Shown: positions 4,076 through 63,700 of the stretch, in pieces | Numbering within the stretch: the first letter of the stretch is position 1 | Layout: every line of letters starts with the position of its first letter | Source: Mesostigma viride | Taxonomy: Eukaryota > Streptophyta > Mesostigmatophyceae > Mesostigmatales > Mesostigmataceae | NCBI GenBank assembly: GCA_009746045.1 | Contig: RPFO01000156.1 | Location: 444,278-508,277 of the forward strand | DNA length: 64,000 bases | Reading direction: 5' to 3' | The notes under the pieces: generated by a model | Seen by the model: only the letters and a program-made list of their open reading frames with translations | Databases searched by the model: none | What the model was told of the DNA's origin: nothing | Translations under genes and position numbers: made by a program

Positions 4076-4139
4076 CCCTGCCACCCCGCGAGCGACCCCA
4101 GCCTACGGAATATATAGCAGTAGCCGGAATATATAGGGC

Positions 4140-4939: not shown

Positions 4940-5317
4940 ATCCCTTCCAGGCCTGCATGGTGGGCCGGCAGCGCTGTTGCTGCGTGTAGTTTTGTGATGT
5001 CTAGTTAGTTGTACCTTGTGCCGCTGGCGTGATCCTTGGATGTCTGTGTCAGCTTACTATTAATTTCTTCAGGGTTATTCTCCCAGTTATCGGGTTTTTC
5101 CTTATGTTGCATGCCTATCTCACCTCCGTAATCTATCATTCTCAATGAATATATAGCAGTAGTCTAGATTAGTCAGTACGTCTTAGCTTGGCCCACGCCT
5201 AAGTGCGCATGTGCGCCTATGATGGGACTCCCCACGGATAATGCTTATTATATTATAGTATATTATATTATGCCTAGCTTTGCCTATGCAGAGAGCTACT
5301 CTCTGTTGAGACGCCAT
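4940..5317 (+). repeat. LINE 3' untranslated region
   Basis: Non-coding. It shares the blocks AATATATAGCAGTAG and GGCCCACGC...GTGCGCC with 44286-44400, where they also follow a family-A coding remnant. It leads directly into a (TTAA)n tract, so it is the 3' end of the element. Confidence 0.65.
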
Positions 5318-5407
5318 TAATTAATTAATTAATTAATTAATTAATTAATTAATTAATTAATTAATTAATTAATTAATTAATTAATTAATTAATTAATTAA
5401 TTAATTA
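5318..5407. repeat. (TTAA)n microsatellite, LINE tail
   Basis: About 22 tandem TTAA units. On the left it ends a plus-strand LINE 3' region. On the right it starts a minus-strand LINE 3' region. TTAA tracts recur at the ends of the same families at 34400-34455, 38279-38338, 41617-41660, 41730-41769, 42022-42042, 45233-45253 and 60261-60280. Confidence 0.9.
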
Positions 5408-13039: not shown

Positions 13040-13332
13040 CACCTTGGCACAATTCAGCAGGTGACCCTATGTGGTCGCTTGATGTGCAATAATAAGTGAA
13101 ACTTGTTCATGGCAAATCACGACTCATCAATCACACAACCATGCAATGACTTTATTGAAAACTTGAACACAATTCAGGTGGCCCTATGTGGTCGCTTGAT
13201 GTGCCATAATAAGTTAAACTTGTTCATGGCAAATCACGGCTCATCAATCACACAACCATGCGATGACTTTATTGAAAACTTGAACACAATTCAGGTGGCC
13301 CTATGTGGTCGCTTGATGTGCCATAATAATAA
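13040..13332 (+). repeat. 117-bp satellite, left block
   Basis: About two and a half copies of a 117-bp unit that includes TTGTTCATGGCAAATCACGG and CCCTATGTGGTCGCTTGATG. The block ends at CCATAATAATAA, where the Harbinger-like element is inserted; the array resumes at 22629. Because 117 is divisible by three, an open frame runs through it. The differences between units mostly change the amino acid, so I do not regard it as coding. Confidence 0.85.
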
Positions 13333-15240: not shown

Positions 15241-15397
15241 TCCAGTGTTTACATAGTGATTGGTTTCGGGTTACACGCCAGACACCTCATGTTTATTACA
15301 AATTAGTGAAATAACACACCAGCGCTAGGTCTAGACTCTAAGCGGGATAACACACAAAATTTGGGACGGCAGTATAAACACCTAAACTGCCCGTCCC
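15241..15397 (-). repeat. 157-bp direct repeat, inner copy, of the YR retrotransposon
   Basis: The inner copy abuts the end of the recombinase coding region. Between the copies (15026-15240) are a G-rich run at 15119-15130 and the two blocks shared with the 5' edge. Confidence 0.9.
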
Positions 15398-15478
15398 ACA
15401 TCTCCATTCTGGCCCCTCAGGCCGTAGTAGACACAAGTAGGCTCACAACCCAGGCGCCCGCAGTGGGTGCGGGTCGGG

Positions 15479-18400
15479 TCACAGTAGATGGCCCCGGAAG
15501 TGGGCGCGCCAGTGCGCCGGGTCCCAGGAATGCGCCAGGGCCCAGAGGCGCGGGGGGAGGTCCAGCAGCAGGGCCCTGTGGAGTCCCACGTAGCGCTGCA
15601 CCGAGTCAGCCGCGCGCCAACGGCCGCGCCGCTGGATGTCCGCCGTCGGGATGTTGCGCAAGGCGTCGTGGGTGGCCCCACCATGCCGCAGCGAGTGCAG
15701 CGTGAACTTGCCCGGGAGCTGGAGCTGGGTCCAGACACTGACCCACTGGACCGCGCCTGCGCATACGTGAGCCCGCCGAAGACCAGCGCCCCCGGTGCCC
15801 GGCCGCGGCACAGCGCGGACAAGAGGCCCAACGAGAGAGGGTCCTCCACGAGGACATGCTGGGTACCACCTTGGGCTGTCTTGGGGTCCCGGAGCAGGAG
15901 TGCCCCCTGACCACGCGCCGGCCCCAGACGGGGGTCCCCTGGGAACGCCACGTCCCCAACGTGCAGGCCCAAAGCCTCGCTGATGCGCAGATACTGCTGG
16001 AAAGCCACCAGCACCCAGCGCAGCCATGGCGGTCTGATGGCGGGAGAGTAGCAGGACAGCCGCGAGGTAGCACAGTCGCCACGGGACCGGGGGGGACTCT
16101 GGCAGGGGACCAGCCGACCCCAGCCGCGCAGCATGCGGTCAGCCATCTGCCACGAGTCGACCACCGAGGGCTGGTACAAGCGGAGCCCCTGCTTCGCCTG
16201 CTGACAAAGAGTCCGCCCCCTGCCCCCTCCACTCTCGTACACCGCCGAGACCCACTCGCAGAACAGTGCCTCGGCCTCGGTGGGGTCGTGCTCCCCGGGT
16301 GGAAGCCACGCCAGAAAGACCGACACGGCGCGGTGGTAGCGGGGCAGGGTGGAACGGGGGTTGACCGTGCCCTCCAAGAGCCGGTGACGGGCGTTGCGCA
16401 GCCGCGGCCCCGGATTGGCCTCCACGTCGCCGTCGGAGGTGAGGTCCCGGCGCCAGCCACCCGCCACCGGGGCACTGCGCGCTCGGCTGGGTCCATCCGC
16501 AGGGTTACTCGAGGTACGCACATACACCCAATGAGACCGGGTGTCCGCCGCCAAGGACAGGGCCGCTACGCGCCGGGCCACTTGGTTGAGCCGGTAAGAA
16601 GACGACCGGCCCTTGACCATGCAGCCGAGGACCGCGCTGGAGTCCACCATCCGCACAACGCGCGTCCCGCGGACGGCCAGGGAGCGACACGACCATTCCA
16701 GACCCTGGGCAGCCACGCGCGCCTCCTTGATGTTGATGTGCTCCCGCGGGTTGCCCCAGCGGTAGGACACCGCCGTCCGCCACGGCGCGGTGGCGATCAC
16801 CTGGTAGTCCGCCTCCGTCAGCCGCTCAACGGTCCAAGGCGTATCCGAGGCCCCCAGCGCCACCGTGGCCCACCCCCGAGCCTCCCGGCGCTGGGCCAAG
16901 GACTGCACCTGTGCAGCCGGTAGGTCGGCGTACACGATCCCGGCCCCCTCCGTGCTGGCGTCTGTCACCACCACCCGGCCCGCGAGGGGGGCTGCCCGCG
17001 GCGCCCGTAGGAAGGGCGCCGTGGCGACAGCCGCCGTGAGCTCCTCCCGCACGCTTTGCCACAACTGCCAGCGGCGGCGCCGCGCGTACCAGTCCCACGG
17101 GTCTGCCCGCATGACGCGCAGCAAGCGGTACGTCTCCCCCCAGAGGGAGAGCAGCGGCCGGCACAGCAGCTGGATCCACACCCACTTGCCGACGAGGGAC
17201 TCGAGTTCCCGCTGGTAGGTGAACCCGCGCCGCAAGACGGCCTGGGTGGCGGCAACGACCCCAGCCAGCCGCTCCGCGGTCGGGACGATGCTTCCGTCGC
17301 GCCGGTGCACGACACCCAAGGCCACCACGTCCCGCTGGTCGGGGCTGGCCGGCACCACCTTACTCGCCTTCTGCGGCAGCCCCGCTGCTGCATAGGCTGC
17401 CGCGGCCCGCGCCAGCTGCTGGTTGACACCCGTCGCCGTTGCACAGTGGGAGACGTGCAGATCGTCGATGGTGATGGCATGGAGGCCCTCCTCGTCGTGC
17501 GGCGGGTCGAAGATGGCGGCGGGGGCCAAGGGGTTGGCCGGGTCCTCCTCCCACCGGAGGCGCACCGTCTGGCCCAGGGGTCCCTTGTCCACCACCAGCA
17601 GGAGCTGGGCCATGTTAATGCTGACGCCCCGACGGGGATCCAAAGCCCCAGAGCGGTACAGCACCGCCATGTGGATCACCTGGGCGACCACCACGGCGTG
17701 CTTGTTACCCATGGGCCAGCAGCGCATCCACGGCCATACCCGCCGGGCGGGCCCGGGCAGCCCGACGTCCCGGGAGTCCACAGCCGGCCAAGCGCAGTAC
17801 TTGCGCAGCCAGTCGGGGAGCCGCAGGCGGTTGTAGTAGCCCTCGAGGTCGGAAGTGCCCCCGAACACCGGGCAGCCAGCCCGCACCCACAGCTCGGCTA
17901 TCACCCCAAGGTGGGGGAGAAGGGCCGCGGGGGGTCTACCAGGAGCCAGTTGCCAGGCCGGTTGTCCACGATGAGTCGCATCGAGCCGTCCGGCTTCTTG
18001 CGCCCCGCCACCCCATTTACTGCTGGGGGCGCCTGCTCATAAAACCCCCCGACAACCCCGGCCTCCAACGCGCGCAGCAACAGCTTGATGTACTCCGCAG
18101 GGGCGCACCCCCGGGTGGCCCGGAACCGCACCCGCCGCTCGCCGGGTGTCAACAGTCGCACCAGCGTCTCCTCGCTGGCATACACGGCCGCCACCGAGGG
18201 CGGCAAGAGCCCCAGCACGTCCACGGTGCCCCCCTCCCCCGGCGCGGGGAACGCGACCTTGTCCGCCTGAATTGTTGTGAAAGGTCCACTTGTGTTGTAG
18301 TCATCCCTGACTGGGGCCGGGCCAGCTGCCGCTACAACAGGCTGCTGGCGGCAATAGGCCCGGCAAGTTTTGAAGATCTCTTGTAGAGCCGCCTCCTGGA

Positions 18401-22628: not shown

Positions 22629-22955
22629 TAAGTTAAACTTGTTCATGGCAAATCACGGCTCATCAATCACACAACCATGCAATGACTTACTGAAAACTTG
22701 AACACAATTCAGGTGGCCCTTTGTGGTCGCTTGATGTGCCATAATAAGTTAGACTTGTTCATGGCAAATCACGGCTCATCAAGCACACAACCATGCAATG
22801 ACTTTATTGAAAACTTAAAAACGATTCAGGTGGCCCTATGTGGTCGCTTGATGTGCCGTAATAAGTTAGACTTGTTCGTGGCAAATCACGGCTCATCAAG
22901 CACACAACCATGCAATGACTTTATTGAGAACTTGAACACAATTCAGGTGGCCAGC
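22629..22955 (+). repeat. 117-bp satellite, right block
   Basis: Almost three units of the satellite seen at 13040-13332, resuming directly after the transposon's right end and TAA. The last unit stops at CAGGTGGCC (about 22951). Confidence 0.85.
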
Positions 22956-36184: not shown

Positions 36185-38275
36185 TAATGCCTCCGTTGGT
36201 TGGGAGATCATGTAGCACATATTCCTTGATGGGTGGCCGGTGGAGTGGAGAGAGCCGTGTAATCGGACTAACCTAACGCTAATCTAGCTAGTCTAGAAAA
36301 ATCCTAACTACCCTACTCATCAAAACGCCTCCTCAGGATCTTGGGGGGAGATGGCTTGCCCACACCGGCGGTCGGGCGTGTGAGCCTTGACAATCTTCTG
36401 CCACCCCGTCTTGTTCTGCATGGCAGTCCAAATTAGAAGGGAGAGAGAGTGGATGCGGTATTCAAACTGGGCTGGGACCAGTAGGTCATCCAGCAACATC
36501 TGGACATAGTTCGTGGCATGTTTCCCTACCCTTTTGGGAATGCCCTTGGGGCCAGGCCAGGTCAGAATGTGCCGCCCTGGCGCTGGCCAAGCCGCTGGGG
36601 GCTGGCCAGACCAAGGGCGGTGTCGACCTGGCTGGTGCGAGCAAGGTGTCCTACAAATGCTATCCTGCGATGTCTAATCTCGTCCGAAATACTCGAGGCA
36701 TGCCCTGATACAAAGACTCTGATGACGGGCGCTAGTTGGAAAACCCTACGTTCAGGACCTGTCGGAGCATCCTGTAAACTGTGCCGTCTAGCCTAGATGC
36801 CAGTGTGGGGGTGAACTCGTGTCCACGCCTCGGCGCCATACGTGAGCACTGAGCACCGTGAAGACGAGGACCTTGAAGAGCTTGCGCTTGCGGTGCTCGC
36901 CCAGGCCCTTGGAGCGCCAGTAGGTGTTGAGCGCGAACGGAGCCTAGCCCAGGCCAGGCCAATGCGGGTGTCCACATCGTCGGCGGTGTCAGGGAGCCAG
37001 CTCCCTAACAGTTTGAAGCGATCGCGGAACGGTACCGTCGTCCCGTCGAGCAGGCGCGGCAGCGGCGGTGTACCGGGAGGCCCCAATCACCATCGCCTCA
37101 GTTTTGACACTAATCTCCAACCCCACCGCCCTCGCCTCCAGGCCCAGACAGTCCAGCCAGGTCTAGAATGTGCTCGGGGCGCGCGATGAGGGTGGTGTCA
37201 TCCGCATAAATCAGGTCGGCCAGGCGGTATAGCCCGGTTCAACCCCGCCGTGCTCTTTCTCCTTAAGGATGTCCAAGCCTGGCTCGAACCCCTCTGTCTG
37301 AGCAGTAAAGCGCGCACGTGCTCGGCGCATGACGTGATCCACGACAATAATGAACAGGTATGGGGACAGGACACAACCTTGCCACACCCCGTGGTGAAGG
37401 GGGAATGGTGGGGTGGTGCCTTCCGCAGTCCGCACTACTGCCTGTGAGCCCTCATACAGTCGGCGAATGGCAGCAATAAACGCAGGTGGCACTCGATCCA
37501 GAGCTAGGATGGCCCAAAGAGCCTCCCAGAGGACCGTGTCAAAGGCCTTGATATAGTCAACAAAAATGAAGACCAGCGGCAAACTGTCAGGGGGAATGCG
37601 ACGCACCTCCTCCATCAACCGGCGCGCGACAAACACAGCCATGACAGTGTTACGACCACGACGAAAAACCATCTGAGACTCACCCAGGTGTGGGTCCAGC
37701 GCGGCGCGGAGCCTGTGCAGCATCATGCGCATGAAGACCTTCAGCTAGCGCAGTGCTCTGGAGGCAGACACCCTGGTAGTTCAGTACCGGGGTCAGCAGC
37801 AGAGCCCTTCTTGTACAGCATGACGCGGATGGCCGTCTGCTACTCAGCAGGCGGAGGCTCGTCAGAAAGCAGGACACGGTTGCAGAACGCCAGCAGAAGA
37901 TTCCTAACCGCCGGATCAGGGGTCTTCAGCAGCTCAGCAGAAAGGTGGTCGGCACCGACCCCCGCATCGTACCCGGCAGGCGAGCAAGGGTGCCGTCCAA
38001 TGCCTTCAAAGTGAAGGGGTGGACGACGTCGTCGGTGGCAAGGCAGCCCTCCTGCAAGGCGGGGACTAGGTAGTCCGCGGCCGAGGAGGGGGGCCGGCAC
38101 TGGCGGTCTGCATCACTGCATGGCAGTCCAAAGCTGTTCTGCATGGCAGTCCAAAGAAGGGAGAGGGAGTGGATGCGGTGTTCAAACTGAGCTGGGACCA
38201 CTAGGTCGGCCAGCAACATCTGGGTGTAGTTCATGACAGGTTTACCTAGCTTCCTGGGAATGTCCTTGGGGCCAG
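36185..38275 (-). pseudogene. LINE ORF2: reverse transcriptase to 3' end, frameshifted
   Basis: On the minus strand, 37732-37211 reads ESQMVFRRGRNTVMAVFVAR, FIFVDYIKAFDTVLWEALWA (RT motif A, D) and LHHGVWQGCVLSPYLFIIVV (motif B). The motif C YADD lies just after a frameshift, LADLIYADDTTLIARP, at about 37185-37225. Then RFKLLGSWLPDTADDVDTRI (about 37000) and LTYGAEAW (36830), RLDGTVYRMLRQVLNVGF (36760), and the GHLAR and 3' end blocks to 36340. The part at 38275-37740 repeats a 3'-end-like block (ADLVVPAQFEHRIHSLSLLW), so two copies may be joined near 38110-38230. Several frameshifts; not functional. Confidence 0.85.
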
Positions 38276-45660: not shown

Positions 45661-45774
45661 TTATCCCATCCGCACAATGCCGGCCTTGACCAGCTTTGCG
45701 ACCTTGGAGGCCACAACAGGGTTCTGCAGGTGATGCTGGGATGCCTTGGGGTCCGAAGAGAGGTCATTCAGCAC
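45661..45774 (-). CDS. HOP: HOP last exon (DP2 end, stop)
   Basis: Reads VLNDLSSDPKASQHHLQNPV, VASKVAKLVKAGIVRMG and stop (45661-45663). The acceptor CTTGCAG is at 45775-45781 on the minus strand. Phase 0. Confidence 0.92.
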   Translation of the reverse strand: MLNDLSSDPKASQHHLQNPVVASKVAKLVKAGIVRMG

Positions 45775-48700
45775 CTGCAAGTGACCACAGTGATCATACC
45801 ATCATCATGAGGCAAATCATAACAATTGATAGACATTAGATGCCGGGAGAATTCTATTCCTGATCGGTAACTAGGTAGGTAGTTCCCCCAGACCCGCGTG
45901 CCTTCAACCTCCAGCCAGCTCCCCCAAAAGGCTGAGACTGCAACAAAACAGCACAAGGCTTGCAACCTGACAGAGAGGGAAGGACCTTCAGAAGGAGCGA
46001 TGGCAGGAGACTGCTCACGTGATGCCAAGGCATGCACAGCATAGAACTCAACACCATGCCGGTAATCAAAGGTACCTACTCAAACAGCGTTTACCCCATG
46101 ACTCTGCAAACAAAGGCAGAAGAACGAACAAATGCATGAACCAATTGCGCGATCAATGCTAGTAGTGTACCAGCAGAAACTACCATGTAGAGGTCCTGTC
46201 TGATTGATCGCGTTTGCATGGCCCAGGTTTGACGCTCACCTGGCGCATGACGGGGTCGGTCAGGATCTGCTGGATCTCTGGGTCCGCCATCGCCTTGGCC
46301 TGCACCCACGACGCGACAAGGAAAAGCGAGAAGAAAGAGAGGAAACATGGTAAGAACGCGACAAAGAAACATTGTAAGAAAGGGTAGCGAGCACCCTGCT
46401 CGAGGGGGTTCGCTCCATCCCTTAGTCATGGGTGGGAGCACTCCATGATAGCCCACTCAGCCTGCGGCTGCGACACATGGCACGCTACGATATGATAGGA
46501 GCCAAGGAACTAGGGCAACAGTGAGAGAGATAAAGCCGATAGGGTACTGAGAACAGGGGGGATTGCAGGGCAGGGCATGATGAGAGAAGGAAAGAAAGGA
46601 GGAAAGAAACAGGAGAAGAGCATACGTGAGGACACGAGAACAGGGAAATAGCAAGGGTCGCAGATAGAACTCCACGATAAGTGGCTTAACCAGCAAAGAC
46701 CAAACATACCCTTGCCTTTCCACCCCTGCTGCGCCTGCTCCCCAAGCCCAACCCCCCTTCCCTGCTCTTTGAGAAATGCTACAGCCAGGGGGCACCAGCT
46801 TTTATGTGTAGTTGCTTACACATATGCCATTGAAAGACCAGCTAAACCTAAAGAAAAGGGTATTCATGCTATTCGCGCTGATAGTTGAGTTGGTCCTTCC
46901 ATATCGGCACCTTATTTGTCTGCCCCCATCAAATGCATGGTGGAGCTGTGATGATTACCCAACCTACAAGACAGAAAACACTGTCCTAAAGCACAAGAAT
47001 GGGGAAGAGCATCACACTAATTATATTCTCTGGTCTAAACTCGTGTGCAAGCGAATCCAAGAGGCATAAGCTTATCCTACATGAGCTGCACACATCCGCT
47101 GACCCATAACATAATCAAAGGCCACCAGGCACAAAAATATACCTCCTTGTCTCCCACTTGTCGAAGCTCCTCTTAGATAAAAGATACATACATGGCAGTA
47201 CATGGCCAGGATACATCTCTATGGCACGGATAACAAAGCCACTCACTTGTCTCTATGGCATGGATAACACAGCCACTCACCTGTCTCTATGGCATGGATA
47301 ACAAAGCCACTCACTTGTCTCCTCTATGGCATGGATAACAAAGCCACTCACTTGTCTCTATGGCATGGATAACAAAGCCACTCACTTGTCTCCTCTATGG
47401 CATGGATAACAAAGCCACTCACTTGTCTCCTCTATGGCATGGATAACAAAGCCACTCACTTGTCTCTATGGCATGGACAACAAAGCCACTCACTTGTCTC
47501 CTCTATGGCATGGATAACAAAGCCACTCACTTGTCTCCTCTATGGCATGGATAACAAAGCCACTCACTTGTCTCCTCTATGGCATGGATAACAAAGCCAC
47601 TCACTTGTCTCTATGGCATGGACAACAAAGCCACTCACCTGTCTCCTCTATGGCATGGATAACAAAGCCACTCACTTGTCTCTATGGCATGGATAACAAA
47701 GCCACTCACTTGTCTCCTCTATGGCATGGATAACAAAGCCACTCACTTGTCTCTATGGCATGGATAACAAAGCCACTCACTTGTCTCTATGGCATGGATA
47801 ACAAAGCCACTCACTTGTCTCCTCTATGGCATGGATAACAAAGCCACTCACTTGTCTCCTCTATGGCATGGATAACAAAGCCACTCACTTGTCTCCTCTA
47901 TGGCATGGATAACAAAGCCACTCACTTGTCTCTATGGCATGGATAACAAAGCCACTCACTTGTCTCTATGGCATGGATAACAAAGCCACTCACCTGTCTC
48001 TATGGCATGGATAACAAAGCCACTCACTTGTTCCTCTATGGCATGGATAACAAAGCCACTCACTTGTCTCCTCTATGGCATGGATAACAAAGCCACTCAC
48101 CTGTCTCTATGGCATGGATAACAAAGCCACTCACTTGTCTCCTCTATGGCATGGATAACAAAGCCACTCACTTGTCTCCTCTATGGCATGGATAACAAAG
48201 CCACTCACTTGTCTCCTCTATGGCATGGATAACAAAGCCACTCACTTGTCTCTATGGCATGGATAACAAAGCCACTCACTTGTCTCTATGGCATGGATAA
48301 CAAAGCCACTCACTTGTCTCTATGGCATGGATAACAAAGCCACTCACCTGTCTCTATGGCATGGATAACAAAGCCACTCACTTGTTTCCTCTATGGCATG
48401 GATAACAAAGCCACTCACTGTCTCCTCTATGGCATGGATAACAAAGCCACTCACTTGTCTCTATGGCATGGATAACAAAGCCACTCACCTGTCTCTATGG
48501 CATGGATAACAAAGCCACTCACTTGTCTCCTCTATGGCATGGATATCAAAGCCACTCACTTGTTTCCTCTATGGCATGGATAACAAAGCCACTCACTTGT
48601 CTCTATGGCATGGATAACAAAGCCACTCACTTGTCTCTATGGCATGGATAACAAAGCCACTCACTTGTCTCCTCTATGGCATGGATAACAAAGCCACTCA

Positions 48701-51700
48701 CTTGTCTCTATGGCATGGATAACAAAGCCACTCACTTGTCTCTATGGCATGGATAACAAAGCCACTCACTTGTCTCCTCTATGGCATGGATAACAAAGCC
48801 ACTCACTTGTCTCTATGGCATGGATAACAAAGCCACTCACTTGTCTCCTCTATGGCATGGATAACAAAGCCACTCACTTGTCTCTATGGCATGGATAACA
48901 AAGCCACTCACTTGTCTCTATGGCATGGATAACAAAGCCACTCACTTGTCTCTATGGCATGGATAACAAAGCCACTCACTTGTTCCTCTATGGCATGGAT
49001 AACAAAGCCACTCACTTGTCTCCTCTATGGCATGGATAACAAAGCCACTCACCTGTCTCTATGGCATGGATAACAAAGCCACTCACTTGTCTCCTCTATG
49101 GCATGGATAACAAAGCCACTCACTTGTCTCCTCTATGGCATGGATAACAAAGCCACTCACTTGTCTCCTCTATGGCATGGATAACAAAGCCACTCACTTG
49201 TCTCTATGGCATGGATAACAAAGCCACTCACTTGTCTCCTCTATGGCATGGATAACAAAGCCACTCACTTGTCTCCTCTATGGCATGGATAACAAAGCCA
49301 CTCACTTGTCTCCTCTATGGCATGGATAACAAAGCCACTCACTTGTCTCTATGGCATGGATAACAAAGCCACTCACTTGTCTCTATGGCATGGATAACAA
49401 AGCCACTCACTTGTCTCCTCTATGGCATGGATAACAAAGCCACTCACTTGTCTCTATGGCATGGATAACAAAGCCACTCACTTGTCTCTATGGCATGGAT
49501 AACAAAGCCACTCACTTGTCTCCTCTATGGCATGGATAACAAAGCCACTCACTTGTCTCTATGGCATGGATAACAAAGCCACTCACTTGTCTCCTCTATG
49601 GCATGGATAACAAAGCCACTCACTGTCTCTATGGCATGGATAACAAAGCCACTCACTTGTCTCTATGGCATGGATAACAAAGCCACTCACTTGTCTCTAT
49701 GGCATGGATAACAAAGCCACTCACTTGTCTCTATGGCATGGATAACAAAGCCACTCACTTGTCTCCTCTATGGCATGGATAACAAAGCCACTCACTTGTC
49801 TCTATGGCATGGATAACAAAGCCACTCACTGTCTCCTCTATGGCATGGATAACAAAGCCACTCACTTGTCTCCTCTATGGCATGGATAACAAAGCCACTC
49901 ACTTGTCTCCTCTATGGCATGGATAACAAAGCCACTCACTTGTCTCCTCTATGGCATGGATAACAAAGCCACTCACTTGTCTCTATGGCATGGATAACAA
50001 AGCCACTCACTTGTCTCTATGGCATGGATAACAAAGCCACTCACTTGTCTCCTCTATGGCATGGATAACAAAGCCACTCACTTGTCTCTATGGCATGGAT
50101 AACAAAGCCACTCACTTGTCTCCTCTATGGCATGGATAACAAAGCCACTCACTTGTCTCTATGGCATGGATAACAAAGCCACTCACTTGTCTCTATGGCA
50201 TGGATAACAAAGCCACTCACTTGTCTCCTCTATGGCATGGATAACAAAGCCACTCACTTGTCTCCTCTATGGCATGGATAACAAAGCCACTCACTTGTCT
50301 CCTCTATGGCATGGATAACAAAGCCACTCACTGTCTCTATGGCATGGATAACAAAGCCACTCACTTGTCTCTCTATGGCATGGATAACAAAGCCACTCAC
50401 TTGTCTCTATGGCATGGATAACAAAGCCACTCACTTGTCTCCTCTATGGCATGGATAACAAAGCCACTCACTTGTCTCTATGGCATGGATAACAAAGCCA
50501 CTCACTTGTCTCTATGGCATGGATAACAAAGCCACTCACTTGTCTCCTCTATGGCATGGATAACAAAGCCACTCACTTGTCTCTATGGCATGGATAACAA
50601 AGCCACTCACTGTCTCTATGGCATGGATAACAAAGCCACTCACTTGTCTCTATGGCATGGATAACAAAGCCACTCACTTGTCTCCTCTATGGCATGGATA
50701 ACAAAGCCACTCACTTGTCCTCTATGGCATGGATAACAAAGCCACTCACTTGTCTCTATGGCATGGATAACAAAGCCACTCACTTGTCTCTATGGCATGG
50801 ATAACAAAGCCACTCACTTGTCTCCTCTATGGCATGGATAACAAAGCCACTCACTTGTCTCTATGGCATGGATAACAAAGCCACTCACTTGTCTCTATGG
50901 CATGGATAACAAAGCCACTCACTTGTCTCCTCTATGGCATGGATAACAAAGCCACTCACTTGTCTCTATGGCATGGATAACAAAGCCACTCACTTGTCTC
51001 CTCTATGGCATGGATAACAAAGCCACTCACTTGTCTCTATGGCATGGATAACAAAGCCACTCACTTGTCTCTATGGCATGGATAACAAAGCCACTCACTT
51101 GTCTCTATGGCATGGATAACAAAGCCACTCACTTGTCCTCTATGGCATGGATAACAAAGCCACTCACTTGTCTCCTCTATGGCATGGATAACAAAGCCAC
51201 TCACTGTCTCTATGGCATGGATAACAAAGCCACTCACTTGTCTCCTCTATGGCATGGATAACAAAGCCACTCACTTGTCTCCTCTATGGCATGGATAACA
51301 AAGCCACTCACTTGTCTCCTCTATGGCATGGATAACAAAGCCACTCACTTGTCTCTATGGCATGGATAACAAAGCCACTCACTTGTCTCCTCTATGGCAT
51401 GGATAACAAAGCCACTCACTTGTCTCCTCTATGGCATGGATAACAAAGCCACTCACTTGTCTCCTCTATGGCATGGATAACAAAGCCACTCACTTGTCTC
51501 TATGGCATGGATAACAAAGCCACTCACTTGTCTCTATGGCATGGATAACAAAGCCACTCACTTGTCTCCTCTATGGCATGGATAACAAAGCCACTCACTT
51601 GTCTCTATGGCATGGATAACAAAGCCACTCACTTGTCTCTATGGCATGGATAACAAAGCCACTCACTTGTCTCCTCTATGGCATGGATAACAAAGCCACT

Positions 51701-54700
51701 CACTTGTCTCTATGGCATGGATAACAAAGCCACTCACTTGTCTCCTCTATGGCATGGATAACAAAGCCACTCACTTGTCTCTATGGCATGGATAACAAAG
51801 CCACTCACTTGTCTCTATGGCATGGATAACAAAGCCACTCACTTGTCTCTATGGCATGGATAACAAAGCCACTCACTTGTCTCTATGGCATGGATAACAA
51901 AGCCACTCACTTGTCTCCTCTATGGCATGGATAACAAAGCCACTCACTTGTCTCTATGGCATGGATAACAAAGCCACTCACTTGTCTCCTCTATGGCATG
52001 GATAACAAAGCCACTCACTTGTCTCCTCTATGGCATGGATAACAAAGCCACTCACTTGTCTCCTCTATGGCATGGATAACAAAGCCACTCACTTGTCTCC
52101 TCTATGGCATGGATAACAAAGCCACTCACTTGTCTCTATGGCATGGATAACAAAGCCACTCACTTGTCTCTATGGCATGGATAACAAAGCCACTCACTTG
52201 TCTCCTCTATGGCATGGATAACAAAGCCACTCACTTGTCTCTATGGCATGGATAACAAAGCCACTCACTTGTCTCCTCTATGGCATGGATAACAAAGCCA
52301 CTCACTTGTCTCTATGGCATGGATAACAAAGCCACTCACTTGTCTCTATGGCATGGATAACAAAGCCACTCACTTGTCTCCTCTATGGCATGGATAACAA
52401 AGCCACTCACTTGTCTCCTCTATGGCATGGATAACAAAGCCACTCACTTGTCTCCTCTATGGCATGGATAACAAAGCCACTCACTTGTCTCTATGGCATG
52501 GATAACAAAGCCACTCACTTGTCTCTCTATGGCATGGATAACAAAGCCACTCACTTGTCTCTATGGCATGGATAACAAAGCCACTCACTTGTCTCCTCTA
52601 TGGCATGGATAACAAAGCCACTCACTTGTCTCTATGGCATGGATAACAAAGCCACTCACTTGTCTCTATGGCATGGATAACAAAGCCACTCACTTGTCTC
52701 CTCTATGGCATGGATAACAAAGCCACTCACTTGTCTCTATGGCATGGATAACAAAGCCACTCACTTGTCTCTATGGCATGGATAACAAAGCCACTCACTT
52801 GTCTCTATGGCATGGATAACAAAGCCACTCACTTGTCTCCTCTATGGCATGGATAACAAAGCCACTCACTTGTCTCCTCTATGGCATGGATAACAAAGCC
52901 ACTCACTTGTCTCCTCTATGGCATGGATAACAAAGCCACTCACTTGTCTCTATGGCATGGATAACAAAGCCACTCACTTGTCTCTATGGCATGGATAACA
53001 AAGCCACTCACTTGTCTCTATGGCATGGATAACAAAGCCACTCACTTGTCTCCTCTATGGCATGGATAACAAAGCCACTCACTTGTCTCTATGGCATGGA
53101 TAACAAAGCCACTCACTTGTCTCTATGGCATGGATAACAAAGCCACTCACTTGTCTCCTCTATGGCATGGATAACAAAGCCACTCACTTGTCTCTATGGC
53201 ATGGATAACAAAGCCACTCACTTGTCTCTATGGCATGGATAACAAAGCCACTCACTGTCTCTATGGCATGGATAACAAAGCCACTCACTTGTCTCCTCTA
53301 TGGCATGGATAACAAAGCCACTCACTTGTCTCCTCTATGGCATGGATAACAAAGCCACTCACTTGTCTCCTCTATGGCATGGATAACAAAGCCACTCACT
53401 TGTCTCCTCTATGGCATGGATAACAAAGCCACTCACTTGTCTCTATGGCATGGATAACAAAGCCACTCACTTGTCTCTATGGCATGGATAACAAAGCCAC
53501 TCACTTGTCTCTATGGCATGGATAACAAAGCCACTCACTTGTTCCTCTATGGCATGGATAACAAAGCCACTCACTTGTCTCCTCTATGGCATGGATAACA
53601 AAGCCACTCACTTGTCTCTATGGCATGGATAACAAAGCCACTCACTTGTCTCCTCTATGGCATGGATAACAAAGCCACTCACTTGTCTCCTCTATGGCAT
53701 GGATAACAAAGCCACTCACTTGTCTCCTCTATGGCATGGATAACAAAGCCACTCACTTGTCTCTATGGCATGGATAACAAAGCCACTCACTTGTCTCTAT
53801 GGCATGGATAACAAAGCCACTCACTTGTCTCTATGGCATGGATAACAAAGCCACTCACTTGTCTCTATGGCATGGATAACAAAGCCACTCACTTGTCTCC
53901 TCTATGGCATGGATAACAAAGCCACTCACTTGTCTCTATGGCATGGATAACAAAGCCACTCACTTGTCTCCTCTATGGCATGGATAACAAAGCCACTCAC
54001 TTGTCTCTATGGCATGGATAACAAAGCCACTCACTTGTCTCTATGGCATGGATAACAAAGCCACTCACTTGTCTCCTCTATGGCATGGATAACAAAGCCA
54101 CTCACTTGTCTCCTCTATGGCATGGATAACAAAGCCACTCACTTGTCTCCTCTATGGCATGGATAACAAAGCCACTCACCTGTCTCTATGGCATGGATAA
54201 CAAAGCCACTCACTTGTCTCTCTATGGCATGGATAACAAAGCCACTCACTTGTCTCTATGGCATGGATAACAAAGCCACTCACTTGTCTCCTCTATGGCA
54301 TGGATAACAAAGCCACTCACTTGTCTCTATGGCATGGATAACAAAGCCACTCACTTGTCTCTATGGCATGGATAACAAAGCCACTCACTTGTCTCCTCTA
54401 TGGCATGGATAACAAAGCCACTCACTTGTCTCTATGGCATGGATAACAAAGCCACTCACTTGTCTCTATGGCATGGATAACAAAGCCACTCACTTGTCTC
54501 TATGGCATGGATAACAAAGCCACTCACTTGTCTCCTCTATGGCATGGATAACAAAGCCACTCACTTGTCTCCTCTATGGCATGGATAACAAAGCCACTCA
54601 CTTGTCTCCTCTATGGCATGGATAACAAAGCCACTCACTTGTCTCTATGGCATGGATAACAAAGCCACTCACTTGTCTCTATGGCATGGATAACAAAGCC

Positions 54701-57700
54701 ACTCACTTGTCTCTATGGCATGGATAACAAAGCCACTCACTTGTCTCCTCTATGGCATGGATAACAAAGCCACTCACTTGTCTCTATGGCATGGATAACA
54801 AAGCCACTCACTTGTCTCTATGGCATGGATAACAAAGCCACTCACTTGTCTCCTCTATGGCATGGATAACAAAGCCACTCACTTGTCTCTATGGCATGGA
54901 TAACAAAGCCACTCACTTGTCTCTATGGCATGGATAACAAAGCCACTCACTTGTCTCTATGGCATGGATAACAAAGCCACTCACTTGTCTCCTCTATGGC
55001 ATGGATAACAAAGCCACTCACTTGTCTCCTCTATGGCATGGATAACAAAGCCACTCACTTGTCTCCTCTATGGCATGGATAACAAAGCCACTCACTTGTC
55101 TCCTCTATGGCATGGATAACAAAGCCACTCACTTGTCTCTATGGCATGGATAACAAAGCCACTCACTTGTCTCTATGGCATGGATAACAAAGCCACTCAC
55201 CTGTCTCTATGGCATGGATAACAAAGCCACTCACTTGTTTCCTCTATGGCATGGATAACAAAGCCACTCACTTGTCTCCTCTATGGCATGGATAACAAAG
55301 CCACTCACTGTCTCTATGGCATGGATAACAAAGCCACTCACTTGTCTCCTCTATGGCATGGATAACAAAGCCACTCACTTGTCTCCTCTATGGCATGGAT
55401 AACAAAGCCACTCACTTGTCTCCTCTATGGCATGGATAACAAAGCCACTCACTTGTCTCTATGGCATGGATAACAAAGCCACTCACTTGTCTCTATGGCA
55501 TGGATAACAAAGCCACTCACTTGTCTCTATGGCATGGATAACAAAGCCACTCACCTGTCTCTATGGCATGGATAACAAAGCCACTCACTTGTTTCCTCTA
55601 TGGCATGGATAACAAAGCCACTCACCTGTCTCCTCTATGGCATGGATAACAAAGCCACTCACTTGTCTCTATGGCATGGATAACAAAGCCACTCACCTGT
55701 CTCTATGGCATGGATAACAAAGCCACTCACTTGTCTCCTCTATGGCATGGATAACAAAGCCACTCACTTGTTTCCTCTATGGCATGGATAACAAAGCCAC
55801 TCACTTGTCTCTATGGCATGGATAACAAAGCCACTCACTTGTCTCTATGGCATGGATAACAAAGCCACTCACTTGTCTCCTCTATGGCATGGATAACAAA
55901 GCCACTCACTTGTCTCTATGGCATGGATAACAAAGCCACTCACTTGTCTCTATGGCATGGATAACAAAGCCACTCACTTGTCTCCTCTATGGCATGGATA
56001 ACAAAGCCACTCACTTGTCTCTATGGCATGGATAACAAAGCCACTCACTTGTCTCTATGGCATGGATAACAAAGCCACTCACCTGTCTCTATGGCATGGA
56101 TAACAAAGCCACTCACCTGTCTCTATGGCATGGATAACAAAGCCACTCACCTGTCTCTATGGCATGGATAACAAAGCCACTCACTTGTCTCCTCTATGTC
56201 ATGGATAACAAAGCCACTCACTTGTCTCTATGGCATGGATAACAAAGCCACTCACCTGTCTCTGTGGCATGGATAACAAAGCCACTCACCTGTCTCTATG
56301 GCATGGATAACAAAGCCACTCACCTGTCTCTATGGCATGGATAACAAAGCCACTCACTTGTCTCCTCTATGTCATGGATAACAAAGCCACTCACTTGTCT
56401 CTATGGCATGGATAACAAAGCCACTCACCTGTCTCTATGGCATGGATAACAAAGCCACTCACTTGTCTCCTCTATGGCATGGATAACAAAGCCACTCACT
56501 TGTCTCCTCTATGGCATGGATAACAAAGCCACTCACTTGTCTCTATGGCACGGATAACAAAGCCACTCACTTGTCTCCTCTATGGCACGGATAACAAAGC
56601 CACTCACTTGTCTCCTCTATGGCACGGATAACAAAGCCACTCACTTGTCTCCTCTATGGCATGGATAACAAAGCCACTCACTTGTCTCTATGGCATGGAT
56701 AACAAAGCCACTCACTTGTCTCTATGGCATGGATAACAAAGCCACTCACTTGTCTCCTCTATGGCATGGATGACAAAGCCACTCACTTGTCTCTATGGCA
56801 TGGATAACAAAGCCACTCACTTGTCTCTATGGCATGGATAACAAAGCCACTCACTTGTCTCCTCTATGGCATGGATGACAAAGCCACTCACTTGTCTCCT
56901 CTATGGCATGGATAACAAAGCCACTCACTTGTCTCTATGGCATGGATAACAAAGCCACTCACTTGTCTCCTCTATGGCATGGATAACAAAGCCACTCACT
57001 TGTCTCCTCTATGGCATGGATAACAAAGCCACTCACTTGTCTCTATGGCATGGATAACAAAGCCACTCACTTGTCTCCTCTATGGCATGGATAACAAAGC
57101 CACTCACTTGTCTCTATGGCATGGATAACAAAGCCACTCACTTGTCTCTATGGCATGGATAACAAAGCCACTCACTTGTCTCTATGGCATGGATAACAAA
57201 GCCACTCACTTGTCTCCTCTATGGCATGGATAACAAAGCCACTCACTTGTCTCCTCTATGGCATGGATAACAAAGCCACTCACTTGTCTCCTCTATGGCA
57301 TGGATAACAAAGCCACTCACTTGTCTCTATGGCATGGATAACAAAGCCACTCACTTGTCTCCTCTATGGCATGGATAACAAAGCCACTCACTTGTCTCTA
57401 TGGCATGGATAACAAAGCCACTCACTTGTCTCCTCTATGGCATGGATAACAAAGCCACTCACTTGTCTCCTCTATGGCATGGATAACAAAGCCACTCACT
57501 TGTCTCCTCTATGGCATGGATAACAAAGCCACTCACCTGTCTCTATGGCATGGATAACAAAGCCACTCACTTGTCTCCTCTATGGCATGGATAACAAAGC
57601 CACTCACTTGTCTCTATGGCATGGATAACAAAGCCACTCACCTGTCTCCTCTATGGCATGGATAACAAAGCCACTCACTTGTCTCCTCTATGGCATGGAT

Positions 57701-60700
57701 AACAAAGCCACTCACTTGTCTCCTCTATGGCATGGATAACAAAGCCACTCACTTGTCTCCTCTATGGCATGGATAACAAAGCCACTCACTTGTCTCCTCT
57801 ATGGCATGGATAACAAAGCCACTCACCTGTCTCTATGGCATGGATAACAAAGCCACTCACTTGTCTCCTCTATGGCATGGATAACAAAGCCACTCACTTG
57901 TCTCTATGGCATGGATAACAAAGCCACTCACCTGTCTCCTCTATGGCATGGATAACAAAGCCACTCACTTGTCTCCTCTATGGCATGGATAACAAAGCCA
58001 CTCACCTGTCTCTATGGCATGGATAACAAAGCCACTCACTTGTCTCCTCTATGGCATGGATAACAAAGCCACTCACTTGTCTCCTCTATGGCATGGATAA
58101 CAAAGCCACTCACCTGTCTCTATGGCATGGATAACAAAGCCACTCACTTGTCTCTATGGCATGGATAACAAAGCCACTCACTTGTCTCTATGGCATGGAT
58201 AACAAAGCCACTCACCTGTCTCTCTTTGAGCTCCTCTTCGCTGACGTTGCCCGACATGACCTTGCTCAGCTGGTCGTAGCACCTGCAGGGGGGGGGGGGG
58301 GGGGGGGGGCGCATGTGTGATCATTGGGGCATATCACCACAAAGATTCTTCAGGACTCTGCGTCAAACCCAACAAGCTACGACGGCAAACTCGGGCCATT
58401 CTGCATTCAAACAGCATTGTCAGAGCATCCACTTTCGCACTTTCCCACCTAACCCCCCCCCAAGGAAACAGGGCTAGTCAGTATCTTCAGGGAGTTTTCG
58501 GGGAATGAAATGGTACAGTCTGACCCTTCCCCTGTTTCCTCCCTTTCTTTCTCCTTGTCACACCAAACCTGGACCGGCCAGCGGGATTTGTTTCAAAAAC
58601 GGCAGCGCGGGAGCAGTAACTCCCTCTTTTTGGCTTGCCGCCCCCCCCAGTCAGCGTCCCCCACCTGCTCATATGGAAGCCCTAGACTCGTCACTATAGC
58701 ATTAGCTTCTTTCACCAAAACCACCCCTATGCCCCCAACCGTGAGCTTCTCGTTCTCCAATAACTGATATTACAGCTATTGACACAATCACTGCAACCAC
58801 CGCTGTAACCCACCGGCGCACCACCTCCTTAAGCTCCGCGTTCTCCTATACCTGAAATCCTCAGTACCATTACTAGTGTTAATAATGGTTAATATGACCC
58901 ACCTGCGCACTCCCTCCTTGAGCTCCTCGTTCTCCGGGTCGTGCTTCAAGCCCTCCTGTTGGTGTGGGGATGTGGGAACACAAGTGGCCACATGGGTGGG
59001 CATGTGGGTGGGCATATTGGTGGGCATATTGGTGGGCATGTGGGTGGGCATATTGGTGGGCATATTGGTGGGCATATTGGTGGGCATGTGGGTGGGCATG
59101 CGGGTGGGCATGTGGGTGGGCATGTGGGTGGGCATGTGGGTGGGCATGTGGGTGGGCATGTGGGTGGGCATGCGGGTGGGCAAAAGGGTGTGTTCATGCT
59201 TGCGGTGAATAGGGGTGCGGTGGTGGGGTATAACCCGCTGCTCGTCCAATTTGTTGCAAAATAATACCAGTACGGGCTCATGAGCCACATCCTCACAATG
59301 AACTGCCTGACAAAATCGCTAGTGAGGCTACTGCTACACATCATATGATTATTGTGGTACATTGGATGCATTACTAATTACCGTGGCCAAGACATCTGCC
59401 CCCTCCCCTGGTACGCAGCGAACACTTTCTCATACTTAATTCAAATGAAGCTACCACTTCGCTGCTTACCGATGCCCCAAATCTCCAATGCCCTCCCTTC
59501 CAACCTGGTGCGTGGCGAGCGATCGTGTGGCTATTAATGAGTCTTAAAGCAGACCAACTTGAAACATGACCAATACTACTCGACCCTACCCACCCTGGTA
59601 CGCGGCGAGCACTCGTCTGGCTATTCATGAGTCTTACAGCGGACCGACTTGCGCACAAACAAGGGTCTAGGGCAGCAGCTCTGCTACAACAGCATCCATA
59701 ACCTTACTCCCTCGCATCGGCACCCCAGCCCGCTCACCAAATCCGTTGCGAGCGCCTTCCCATGCTAAAATTATGCTACTATCGCTTAGCTACCAGCAAC
59801 AACAAAATAGCCCCGATTCTAACGACGTTCCTGGTAGGTTGCGAGCGCCTTCCCATCTTCAAGTTATGCTGCTGTCGCTTAGCTAACAGAAACAACAACA
59901 AATGAGCGATTCTAACGACGTTACTCTTTACCCACCTGGTAGGTTGCGAGCGCCTTCTCGTAGTCGCGCATGAAGAACTGTGCGTGGCCCTTGCGCGAGT
60001 ACCCCTTGCCAAAGTTGGGCGCCATCTCGATGCACTTGTCGGCATCTTTGAGAGACTCCGGGAACGCCCCCAGCTTGGCGTAGCACGCCGCGCGGTTGCT
60101 GTACAGCCTGTAGTCGCTCGGGTCGCGCTTCATCGCGTCGCTGTAGAAGGTGACGGCCTCGGGGTACTGCTGCGCGCGGAACGCCTCGTTGCCTGCGGGC
60201 GGCCGTCACCATGGGGAAAAAAGGTTTGAACACGCAGTTTGGAAAAGAACAGACAAACCATTAATTAATTAATTAATTAGGAACATAACTCCGTTGGGAG
60301 TATATGTAGCGCATAGCCCAGAGAAGGGGCATATGGCCTATCATACATTCTAAGCTACTTCCTGCAAGGGTGGGAATGTAAACGACCCTTGCTCTAGGTG
60401 CACCAGGGCACTTGCAGCCCCATGATCTTTGACAAACCATGCTCCTTGAGAATCTGAGTTGTGAGAAAGAACAAACAAACCATATCCCTTAAAATCAGGT
60501 CTGAAAAAGAACAGACTAACCATGTCCCTGAAGAATCAGTTCTATAAAGGACCCTATCCCTTCAGAAGATACCGGCCAAAACCCCTAGGAAAAAAGCAGC
60601 AGCGGGTGTTACAGAGACCATGGCTACAATATCTGCCCACAGTTAAGGAGCGATATAAAAGAGAGAGAGAGATACCAACCACGTTATGCAGTAAAAACAT

Positions 60701-63700
60701 CAAGAAGTAAAATGACACACCGCATGCATCACACGGTATGGAAAAAGAACAAGACAAAAACTGGACAAAAAGAAAAATCCGATTGACGAGATAGCAGCAA
60801 CAGCGGTGGGTAGTAGATAATAATAGTGACAGGTGCATGCGCATCGCTGAACTACGCCATAGCCAGGGCTGCCTGGATACTAGCCAGATGCACCGACCAA
60901 ACCCACCCGACCGACACCCACGGCGATGACGAATGCCACGCACCATAATTGCCAATATCCCTTCTCGAAAAACTACAAGTACGCATCGTTGTCCCTGGCC
61001 TGCTCTGCCGGCTTGGGCGGATTCATAACCCTGGTAGAAACATACAGAAAACCCACCGGGCTACCCATTACCCCACCCCCCACATACCCTTCTCCCTTGC
61101 CTCCTCGGCCAGCTTCGGGCCTACCAAGAGTTAGATAAACCAACACCTGACAAGTGATCATGCAACCATTATCCATCATGCACAAAAATAACGTGACTAC
61201 ATGGGTAACCAAGATTATACTATGATACTATATCAATGAGGTGTACTATACTACAATAACGTGACTACATGGGTAATCAAGATTATACTATGATACTATA
61301 TCAATGAGGTGTACTATACTACAATAACGTGACTACATGGGTAATCAAGATTATACTACGATACTATATCAATGAGGTGTACTATACTACAATAACGTGA
61401 CTACATGGGTAATCAAGATTATACTACGATACTATATCAATGAGGTGTACTATACTACAATAACGTGACTACATGGGTAATCAAGATTATACTACGATAC
61501 TATATCAATGAGGTGTACTACACTAGAATAACGTGACTACATGGGTAATCAAGATTATACTACGATACTATATCAATCAGGTGTACTATACTACAATAAC
61601 GTGACTACATGGGTAATCAAGATTATACTACGATGCTATATCAATGAGGTGTACTATACTACAATAACGTGACTACATGGGTAATCAAGATTATACTACG
61701 ATGCTATATCCATGAGGTGCACTATACTACTACACTTTATCAATGAGACAACCAGCGCAGGCCAGAAACGATATACTACTATATATATTCATTGCGAATG
61801 ATAAATTACGGAGGTGAGCTTGGCATATATATGGGGGGACCAAGTGGATTATAAAACCCAACATGGCGACACACCCTCCTCTCGTGCCTCCTTGAAGCGC
61901 TCGGGTTTCAAATGGCACTAGCCTCCTTGATATCATATAGCCTCCTTGATATCATATAGCACTAGCCTCCTTGACGCGCTCGGGTTTCATATCGCACTAG
62001 CCAGATACACGAACGTGGACCACCCAACCACCGCCCATGCCCGCGAGAGAGTGGCCCACGCACCCTTCTCCCTCGCCTCCTCAGCCAGCTTGGGATCGAT
62101 GTAGTCCTTGGCCTCCTGCTCCGCCTTGGCCCTCTCAGCCTGCTGCAGCCGCTTGAGCGTGTCCGGGTTGCGGTGCTCCGTGAGCGCCTTCTGGTACGCC
62201 TCGATGGCAGGCGTGTAGTCGCTGGCGCACGTCACCATCTTCATCAGCGCGTTGCCCTTGCGCGTGTACGCCTTGCTGATCTGCTTGTAGTCGGCGTGGA
62301 CGCGGCGGCCAAGCTCCACCGCGTCGTCGCAGTCCTTGATACACTCGGAGTACTGGGGGATGGAAGGGGGTGGGGGTGGGGGTGGGGTGGGGGGATATAG
62401 AGGACGTTAGGTGAGAAATTCTGAAGTCATTTTGCGTCATCACAGTCCATGACTGAAAAATAAAGGGAAACAACGTGAAGCAGTACCAAGAACGGAAACT
62501 TCGACCCCTACACAGAACGAGAATGAGCGAGGGCGCCCTAGCGTCTCTCGTAGTCCTTGATGCGCTCGGAATACTGGGGAAAAGGGGGCGAGAGGGGAGG
62601 GATAGGGGACATGACGTTGCAAGCGCAGAAGAGGAAGGTAGGGGGGTATAAAGCAGGGAGGGGAAAGATAGGGCACAAAACGTCCCAGGAGATAGGGAGG
62701 GGGGCGGGTAGGGATAGGGGGCCAGGGGCATGAGGGGGGGAAGGTGTGGGGAGGAAAGAGGGAAAGGAGGAGGAGGGGAAATGGATCAGGGGGGGGATGA
62801 AGGGGGGGGGGGGGGGCACGCGGTCAGCTGCTTTGAAACAAACATGACCCCAAATGGATCAATGGATGCCTGCGAAACAATTTTGTGCCTGAGCGTCTCT
62901 ATGTGCGCGTGTATACACGCGCGGGCGTCAAGGCGTCAACATGCTTGGGGTGAAACGAAAATATATGGGGGCATAGATGGCTACTGCCACTGAAACCGGA
63001 AAGCGACGGGGAGGGCGGGGGGGGGGGGAAAGCAAAAGGAAACAGAACATGCAGAACAACTGGACAAAGAAATGGATGGGGACACCCAAAGGCACCCATG
63101 CCTTTCCACCACAGCGTCATTTGCAAAAAGACCCGGAAGGACCTATCAACTTCGAGCCCTGCAGCAGTTGCGTTGTGACAACGGGTGGGCAAGATACGGA
63201 AGCAGGCAACGGAAAAGACTGGACACATTTCCAGGTATCGTAGTGGTCAAAATCACTTTGCGTCTAACTACTTTGCCAATCGACCTCGCAAACTGCTATT
63301 AATGGGCTTCATTTTGGGTCGCAAAGTTCAAAAGTTACCGCGCCGCGCCAGCGCCCGCGCCGCGCCGGGCCTTTAGAGCCAAGTATCGTAACTTGGCTAG
63401 CGAACGCGTCGCGCCACAATTTTCGCGCCCTGTCATTTGAAAGGTTTTTTCAAACTTCGAAGGCTTGTGCAGACTGCACGGTGTGACTCGTGAGGCACGA
63501 TTGCAGACTTTCAATACATTCTGGGCTACTGCCGGCCTGCAAGGCCGTAGGGTGTAATCTACAGGTCCAGTCATCCTTAGTGCTAATGCTACAACACTCC
63601 ACACCGACTAACATGCATTACCGCGTGAGTTATAATAAATCCTTACGGTATTTAATGAAGTAATATACCATGAGTGCTCAGCATTGATAGGCCGGCTATC

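Follow-up and report, generated by a model that had tools for sequence, protein, structure and literature searches.

Mesostigma viride is a green alga of the lineage in which land plants also arose, and one intron of its HOP/STI1 gene raises the question of how a 5' splice site came to be followed by hundreds of its own likenesses, and whether these serve the gene. In the 64,000-nucleotide window analyzed here, this intron (46300..58215, minus strand; 11,916 nt) is 92% array. Its 311 head-to-tail units of 33-37 bp (47216..58223, minus strand, in the HOP sense), which Tandem Repeats Finder reports as one array, each carry an intact GTGAGTGG, and the start of the array coincides precisely with the real 5' splice site. 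We consider it probable that this is a donor-side 'mirage' of giant size, the extreme of a recurrent and neutrally decaying exon-end duplication in this species.

The motif GTGAGTGG is present 311 times on the transcribed (minus) strand of the window, always between 58215 and 47246, and three times on the plus strand, in good agreement with the roughly 300 sense donor motifs that a first-pass annotation had placed in this one intron. That annotation gave the units as 34 and 37 bp; these lengths account for 155 and 139 of the 310 spacings, while 16 are neither (36 bp, 8; 33 bp, 6; 35 bp, 2). Because no interval exceeds 37, every unit retains GTGAGTGG. The 67-nt exon before the array (Ed, 58216..58282, minus strand; ...CYDQLSKVMSGNVSEEELKERQ) meets the intron as ...CTCAAAGAGAGACAG|GTGAGTGG, and its final eight bases, AGAGACAG, are part of array unit 1. 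The same eight bases stand in the CAG units and differ from AGAGACAA of the 34-bp CAA units at the final base alone; the 37-bp units have seven bases (GAGACAR) in common with the exon end. A 34-bp unit spans the exon-intron boundary with about eight exonic and 26 intronic bases, and the real donor (CAG|GTGAGTGG, 58208..58218, minus strand) is the first of the 311, which bears out the proposal that the satellite unit is the HOP exon end plus the intron start. A further ~298 kb of DNA was examined and does not contain the unit core, and no known RNA family reaches its gathering score within the window. A longer decayed exon-end remnant immediately beyond the array, at 47174, has a P of about 0.06 and is not claimed.

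Homology and reading frame indicate that donor 1 is probably the site used. The homologue P0088 reads continuously (...KERQARSLADPEIQ) across the junction at 58216/58215 (Q|A, phase 0), consistent with the position first assigned to it, and into exon Ee (AKAMADPEIQQILTDPVMRQ; 46240..46299, minus strand); the last exon, Ef, includes the stop codon (45661..45774, minus strand). Translation that runs on past exon Ed meets its first in-frame stop 69 nt inside the intron, at codon 24, as had been anticipated from a TGA within 24 codons. The expectation that later donors would shift the frame or truncate the protein also holds, as an intact C-terminus follows from donor 1 only (1/311 donors, and 0/310 of the later ones). 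A single genomic locus matching the C-terminal part of HOP was found, and the best 120 matches listed per search included no full-length Mesostigma HOP protein, only the shorter gene model P0103. Exon definition across the 67-nt exon would favor the exon-proximal donor. HOP offers a naturally occurring test of how a 5' splice site is chosen: in this chaperone gene, found at one locus, 311 intact donors follow one another, and the protein is compatible with use of the first alone.

One 29-nt core is common to 298 of 310 units, and the unit order repeats at lags of 61 and 48, which together indicate recent block turnover. The triplet before GTGAGTGG is CAA in 277 of the 311 units, CAG in 26 (including the real site) and ACA in eight. 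By successive tenths of the array the CAG units number 7, 7, 4, 1, 0, 0, 0, 0, 3 and 4, with none in tenths 5-8, and they lie on average 40 units from the nearer end where 77 would be expected (none of 20,000 permutations gave so low a value). The array center is homogenized and the edges, where the CAG form persists, are divergent. The first-pass annotation had described the CAG form as enriched near the exon, as expected of outward growth. The exonward shift is real (mean index 110 versus 155, P 0.0044), but CAG units survive at both ends, and we reject simple outward growth as a full account in favor of block turnover. The CAA form is, as the same annotation held, the weaker donor: on a 25-donor matrix from this genome, six HOP donors included, it scores 10.1 bits versus 13.3 for the CAG form, and position -1 is G in 22 of the 25. 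In competition with the real CAG site the CAA units are at a disadvantage.

The array had at first been treated as a singular event, a view that does not stand, as the exon end and 5' splice site have also been copied into introns of other genes. Within HOP itself, three further introns (all features on the minus strand) contain copies, now decayed, in which the end of the exon upstream is joined to its 5' splice site. Exon Ea (62064..62352) has a first copy at 61079..61118 (score 55) and a second, more decayed, at 60981..61017 (score 39); upstream of Ea, at 62541..62579, lies an acceptor-side copy of the 3' splice site and the Ea start (score 46). The copies of the end of exon Eb (59936..60192) fall within 59500..59852. 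In the clearest (59852-59830, score 46) about 60 nt of the intron was copied too and the GT has been lost; a second (59759-59745) scores 30, and two weak ones, at 59610-59587 (score 26) and 59521-59500 (score 24), do not exceed and lie below, respectively, the shuffle maximum of 26. Exon Ec (58903..58955) has copies within 58739..58846, one with the donor GTGGGT (58846-58808, score 53) and one equal to its shuffle maximum of 30 (58758-58739). With the array counted, exon-end copies accompany four of seven HOP donors versus one of seven acceptors; a further acceptor match, at E2, was a C/T run and was discarded.

The same donor-side excess is seen outside HOP. With low-complexity matches dropped, a copy of the exon end lies within about 300 nt on the donor side of 22 of 68 exons from other genes (15 of 25 gene groups), and acceptor-side copies accompany 8/68 (discordant exons 20 versus 6, P 0.0047). 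The exon interior, taken 75 nt upstream as a control, has a copy in 1/63, and the background within 300 nt, low-complexity windows excluded, is 36/452 for flank windows and 220/3000 for random windows. The acceptor rate is not higher than the flank background (P 0.20), so the occurrence of copies at 3' as well as 5' boundaries rests on single clear cases such as that of Ea. Two sets of exons, both chosen blind to copies, make up the survey: CCT/Cpn60 exons (30 loci minus the intronless L021 and the near-duplicate contig L023), with a copy at 8/28 ends versus 7/700 non-cognate pairings, and exons predicted from codon statistics, with 13/40 versus 2/1560. The latter, 40 of the 68, are what remained of 75 coding segments after 35 that were transposon-like, low-complexity, from HOP or unclear had been removed by eye before the copy search; in a Pfam check of ten, three matched, all under curated cut-offs. 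The total depends slightly on the intron extension used for the CCT exons (21/68 with 12 nt, 22/68 with 15 nt), and the 68 exons are clustered in the 25 gene groups. Exon-end duplication followed by decay recurs across these 68 exons and in HOP.

It is possible, though we hold this only tentatively, that the exon 3' end and 5' splice site form a genuine donor-specific hotspot of tandem duplication, such that introns grow from their 5' ends genome-wide and shed decoy donors as they do so, and the spliceosome would have to pick the donor nearest the exon by its position and not by its strength. HOP would then be the limiting natural test, with one usable donor among 311 similar ones. A caution on the reading of recurrent duplication itself is that local repeats are frequent in this genome: a copy lies within 1.5 kb of 17% of 1500 unfiltered random windows and of 11% of 1334 more complex ones. 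Selection on one partner also makes exon copies easier to find, an effect that alone could about double the donor rate; the acceptor side has the same bias.

A functional role for the exon-end copies, as alternative exons or donors under selection, is unlikely. The first Ea copy speaks for such a role: by reading of the sequence it sits in a potential in-phase exon of 33 nt, bordered by AG and GT (AG|GC...AAGG|GTATGT), its three exonic substitutions are all synonymous in the alignment, and it is used by gene model P0103. That model is weak evidence for function, because it stops six residues past the copy and the rest of HOP is absent from it. GT is retained in 20/21 copies with the donor inside the query, a biased count; in copies anchored on exon sequence alone it is retained in 13/19, compared with 14-15 predicted from their mean exon identity (about 0.88). 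The similarity does extend to the donor and then falls, from an ungapped identity of about 0.73 over nine donor positions to 0.35 at +7 to +16, a drop sharper than plain tandem duplication predicts and possibly due to indels and to drift on both intronic sides. Among the 21 copies with a placeable donor position, the intronic flank is co-copied in seven (P<=0.02), which indicates duplication at the DNA level in those seven, and 14 have no significant flank similarity. Spacings show no bias toward multiples of three (7/21), and mismatches fall on all codon positions (17, 26 and 34, the third contributing 34/77), with 10 gaps, in 24 copies that include three HOP exons and leave aside those at L044 and L049. 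The exon-end copies look neutral, and the GT, spacing and mismatch counts do not support selection on decoy donors.

Since smaller, decayed versions stand at about one third of the other exon ends checked, the HOP array looks like an extreme outcome of a process that is common and for the most part harmless. A short stretch over the exon 3' end and 5' splice site would repeatedly be duplicated into the intron and then decay neutrally; in HOP, tandem duplication of about eight exonic and 26 intronic bases across the boundary would have given birth to a minisatellite that later block duplication expanded to 311 units. We infer these replication or recombination events from an anatomy and a unit order that are directly observed. 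The process may persist because the intron lengthens without change to the protein while the exon-proximal donor is in use. Duplications across the 3' splice site seem to be tolerated less often, as a new first AG could be used, and this may be the cause of the observed donor bias.

The array matches a known phenomenon. In amphioxus, tandem repeats across exon-intron boundaries are described as 'mirages' in Adh3, globin, troponin C and PGBD5 genes, with many copies that carry AG/GT signals, cluster edges that escape homogenization, and regular splicing reported as undisturbed (PMC3087553, PMC3902484). Mirages are further characterized by length instability between alleles or individuals. The HOP unit likewise covers an exon-intron boundary, and copies lie at both 5' and 3' boundaries of several Mesostigma genes. 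The array is, however, much larger (311 units versus the 6 and 3 given for the two haplotypes of the BflGb6 mirage; PMC3087553, PMC3902484), the copying is donor-biased, with a measured donor over acceptor excess and decayed copies at 22/68 exon ends checked, and the host is a streptophyte alga. Boundary-spanning duplications, known from amphioxus, mark introns in the streptophyte line too. They are so frequent that they may contribute to intron length, which averages 1.1 kb in M. viride (PMC6947507), may mislead gene models, as P0103 ends beside such a copy, and may supply raw material for new exons. Human IFI6 (6-16) offers a second parallel, a minisatellite whose units carry splice donors adjoining the real one; two of its downstream units reportedly serve as donors, and three mRNA species result (PMC4526556), whereas a later donor in HOP would truncate the protein. 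Tandem genomic duplication of coding sequence with its splice signals is also a model of intron gain (PMC4974935). Splice signals are duplicated together with coding sequence in Mesostigma as well, but there a HOP intron already in place becomes longer, and no gain of an intron position is shown. A literature search on minisatellites, splice donors, mirages and streptophytes, drawn mostly from papers outside subscription and with Mesostigma minisatellite work represented by a paper whose title concerns SSR markers, returned nothing on the arrays of this alga.

The HOP array most likely carries no selected function. We think there is little chance that the array is functional, its hundreds of sense donors binding U1 snRNP, slowing splicing, shielding the long transcript from early polyadenylation or tuning HOP output. 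Each unit does keep its donor intact, the CAA|GTGAGT form outscores 6/25 matrix donors, and at the array's exon end a 361-nt stretch is less stably folded than its shuffles (z +2.17), which gives no support to donors masked by RNA structure there. Nearly identical units would nevertheless retain intact donors through recent homogenization equally well, and comparable copies elsewhere behave neutrally. Another array anchored at a donor (22 x 55 bp, about 122 kb away) keeps GT at 9/23 matched donor-like sites and lacks it at 14/23; the contrast with 311/311 intact motifs in HOP fits selection or recent homogenization alike.

It is very improbable that the array or its copy number is an artifact of assembly. 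An 11-kb array of 34/37-bp units is difficult to assemble, and for some exon matches the scores on two contigs (C887, C1641) are identical, but the units show an ordered variant pattern with block repeats, and the M. viride assembly is reported to draw on SMRT reads and a BioNano map (PMC6947507). Least credible of all is an independent satellite that landed beside the exon and overlaps it by eight bases by chance: minisatellites are plentiful (TRF lists 229 rows with periods of 15-250 over 264 kb, overlapping ones counted), but the overlap keeps the register of the splice junction, donor included, and boundary duplication recurs in the three other HOP introns and in other genes, with up to about 43 exonic bases.

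Tandem copies that span exon-intron boundaries occur in the Mesostigma viride genome; they are biased toward the donor (5' splice site) over the acceptor (3' splice site), they decay in a neutral-looking manner, and one of them has undergone an extreme expansion. That expansion lies in a HOP/STI1 gene. Minus-strand protein pieces at 62.4-45.7 kb match plant HOP/STI1 in a protein search and are 100% identical to P0103, a M. viride HOP gene model, over the part that P0103 covers. The gene begins beyond the window, at about position 66,386 on the window's numbering, and its minus-strand exons within the window are Ea (62352-62064), Eb (60192-59936), Ec (58955-58903), Ed (58282-58216), Ee (46299-46240) and Ef (45774-45661). 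Among the best candidates scored in a six-frame genome search, HOP C-terminal query residues 146-183 were matched at this locus only. A tandem array makes up 92% of the 11,916-nt Ed-Ee intron; the mean intron in the published M. viride assembly is given as 1,142 bp (PMC6947507).

The array contains 311 donors. Its first unit is the real HOP donor, and the final 8 bases of exon Ed are part of the array unit. Our donor matrix was built from 25 donors of the M. viride genome (6 from HOP and 19 picked near CCT exon matches), which themselves range from 5.4 to 14.0 bits. CAG/GTGAGT scores 13.3 bits, CAA/GTGAGT 10.1 and ACA/GTGAGT 4.9, and because of these scores the units look like genuine but weaker donors. 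The intact HOP C-terminus is obtained from donor 1 only (1/311). A 361-nt piece from the exon-proximal end of the array shows less predicted folding than its shuffles.

One 29-nt core is common to 298 of 310 array units. The order of unit types recurs at two lags, 61 and 48 units, and one 21-unit run reappears 48 units further along. Of the 26 units with CAG before the GT, 18 lie in the first three tenths of the array and 7 in the last two, so both ends carry them; tenths 5-8 have none. Our reading is that blocks of CAA units were probably amplified and homogenised within the array, while the edges on both sides retained older forms. Boundary-spanning repeats are known in amphioxus as "mirages" (PMC3087553, PMC3902484), and a comparable edge effect is described for a mirage cluster (PMC3087553), which the surviving edge forms of the HOP array resemble.

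Exon-end copies are also present in other HOP introns. Queries made up of as many as 70 bases of each exon end and 12 intronic bases were locally aligned with the downstream intron, giving copies after Ea (scores 55 and 39), Eb (46, 30, 26 and 24) and Ec (53 and 30), against shuffled-intron maxima of 29, 26 and 30, respectively. Because shuffles reach 26 and 30, neither the second Ec copy nor the Eb copies scoring 26 and 24 reach significance by themselves. Local alignment found no exon-end copy in the intron downstream of Ee, and neither E1 (two candidate donors tried) nor E2 has a donor-side copy. With the array counted, 4 of 7 HOP donors have copies, as does 1 of 7 acceptors (Ea, score 46). 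The first Ea copy is a potential in-phase exon of 33 nt. P0103, which is a gene model and not RNA evidence, reads PKLAEEAREKG twice at this copy and stops six residues past the duplication. It is a shortened HOP model that includes a duplicated exon end, and exon-end copies may therefore mislead gene prediction in this genome.

Two exon samples drawn blind to copies extend the observation to other genes. Among 28 CCT/Cpn60 exons, copies scoring at least 30 within 1.5 kb downstream were found on the donor side in 8, versus 7 of 700 pairings with other genes' flanks, and on the acceptor side in 3, versus 13 of 700. The second sample was 40 exons that codon statistics predict within a 264-kb region comprising the window and its surroundings; copies within 300 nt were found in 13 of 40 on the donor side (2/1560 in the comparison) and 5 of 40 on the acceptor side (3/1560). 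Ten of these 40 were tested against Pfam, and three of the ten had matches at E<=0.001 (PALP, ZIP and phosphoglucomutase domain II), all under curated cut-offs. Pooled, with low-complexity matches dropped, copies accompany 22 of 68 donors versus 8 of 68 acceptors, with 20 exons having a donor-only and 6 an acceptor-only copy (P 0.0047). When exons are grouped by position, 15 of 25 gene groups have donor copies and 7 of 25 acceptor copies. Raising the score cut to 35 weakens the donor excess (15/68 versus 6/68, P 0.039).

Background copying is appreciable. With low-complexity windows excluded, a downstream copy lies within 300 nt of 36 of 452 CCT-exon flank windows and 220 of 3000 random windows; at up to 1.5 kb, 17% of random windows have a copy without filtering (1500 windows) and 11% after filtering (1334 windows). 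The donor side exceeds the flank windows (P 9e-7), the acceptor side does not differ from them (P 0.20), and windows 75 nt inside the exon have a copy in only 1 of 63. The copied element is therefore the exon boundary. The slow change of the exon partner makes copies easier to detect, which accounts for some of the excess over background, but the acceptor side is subject to the same effect.

Intronic flanks and distances were examined in 21 copies with a placeable donor. The intronic flank is also shared in 7 (P<=0.02) and not in the other 14, and those 7 are therefore DNA-level duplications. Donor-to-donor distances have a median of 101 nt (48-185 nt in 19 copies, 752 and 976 nt in the other two); 7 of the 21 are divisible by 3. 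GT is kept in 13 of the 19 copies found by exon sequence alone, about the level predicted from exon identity. Without gaps, identity over +7 to +16 is down to 0.35, a sharper drop than drift alone would suggest. Mismatches at codon positions 1, 2 and 3 number 17, 26 and 34 (P 0.03 for the excess at third positions over one third), as expected with a constrained exon and an unconstrained copy. Given the GT retention, distances and codon-position mismatches, we take most copies to be probable neutral relics.

Duplications that span a 5' splice site would do no harm so long as the exon-proximal donor is used, and would therefore be kept; those that span a 3' splice site would place a new AG first and do harm more often. 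The donor excess could also reflect a mutational hotspot, which the present data do not separate from such differential tolerance. We found no report of such copies in Mesostigma in the literature searched, whose coverage left out most subscription papers. The kind of repeat is itself known; relative to the amphioxus mirages as described, what is new here is the array size, the streptophyte host, and the measured frequency and donor bias.

The 264-kb region also contains a second donor-anchored array, 22 x 55 bp, on the contig that carries the HOP array and about 122 kb away from it (C2:368374-369634, equivalent to 4097-5357 of locus L014; minus strand). It begins at the end of a predicted exon and, as in HOP, exon end and donor are common to the unit; GT is kept at 9 of the 23 donor-like sites matched. 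This exon's own copy scored 29 and so falls outside the 22 of 68. Other repeats in the window include 8 copies of a 68-bp unit in the HOP Ea-Eb intron, distant from the donor (61187-61730), a 12-bp unit (TGGGTGGGCATG, plus strand) repeated about 16 times directly upstream of the Ec acceptor (58993-59182), and two distinct arrays, some 9.3 kb from each other, whose 117-bp units are closely similar (13058-13329 and 22629-22952). Exon matches with identical scores on contigs C887 and C1641 suggest that the assembly contains either two haplotypes or a duplicated region. The window also contains a long minus-strand open frame resembling a retroelement polyprotein (15382-18036) and a reverse-transcriptase-like frame (37211-37744).
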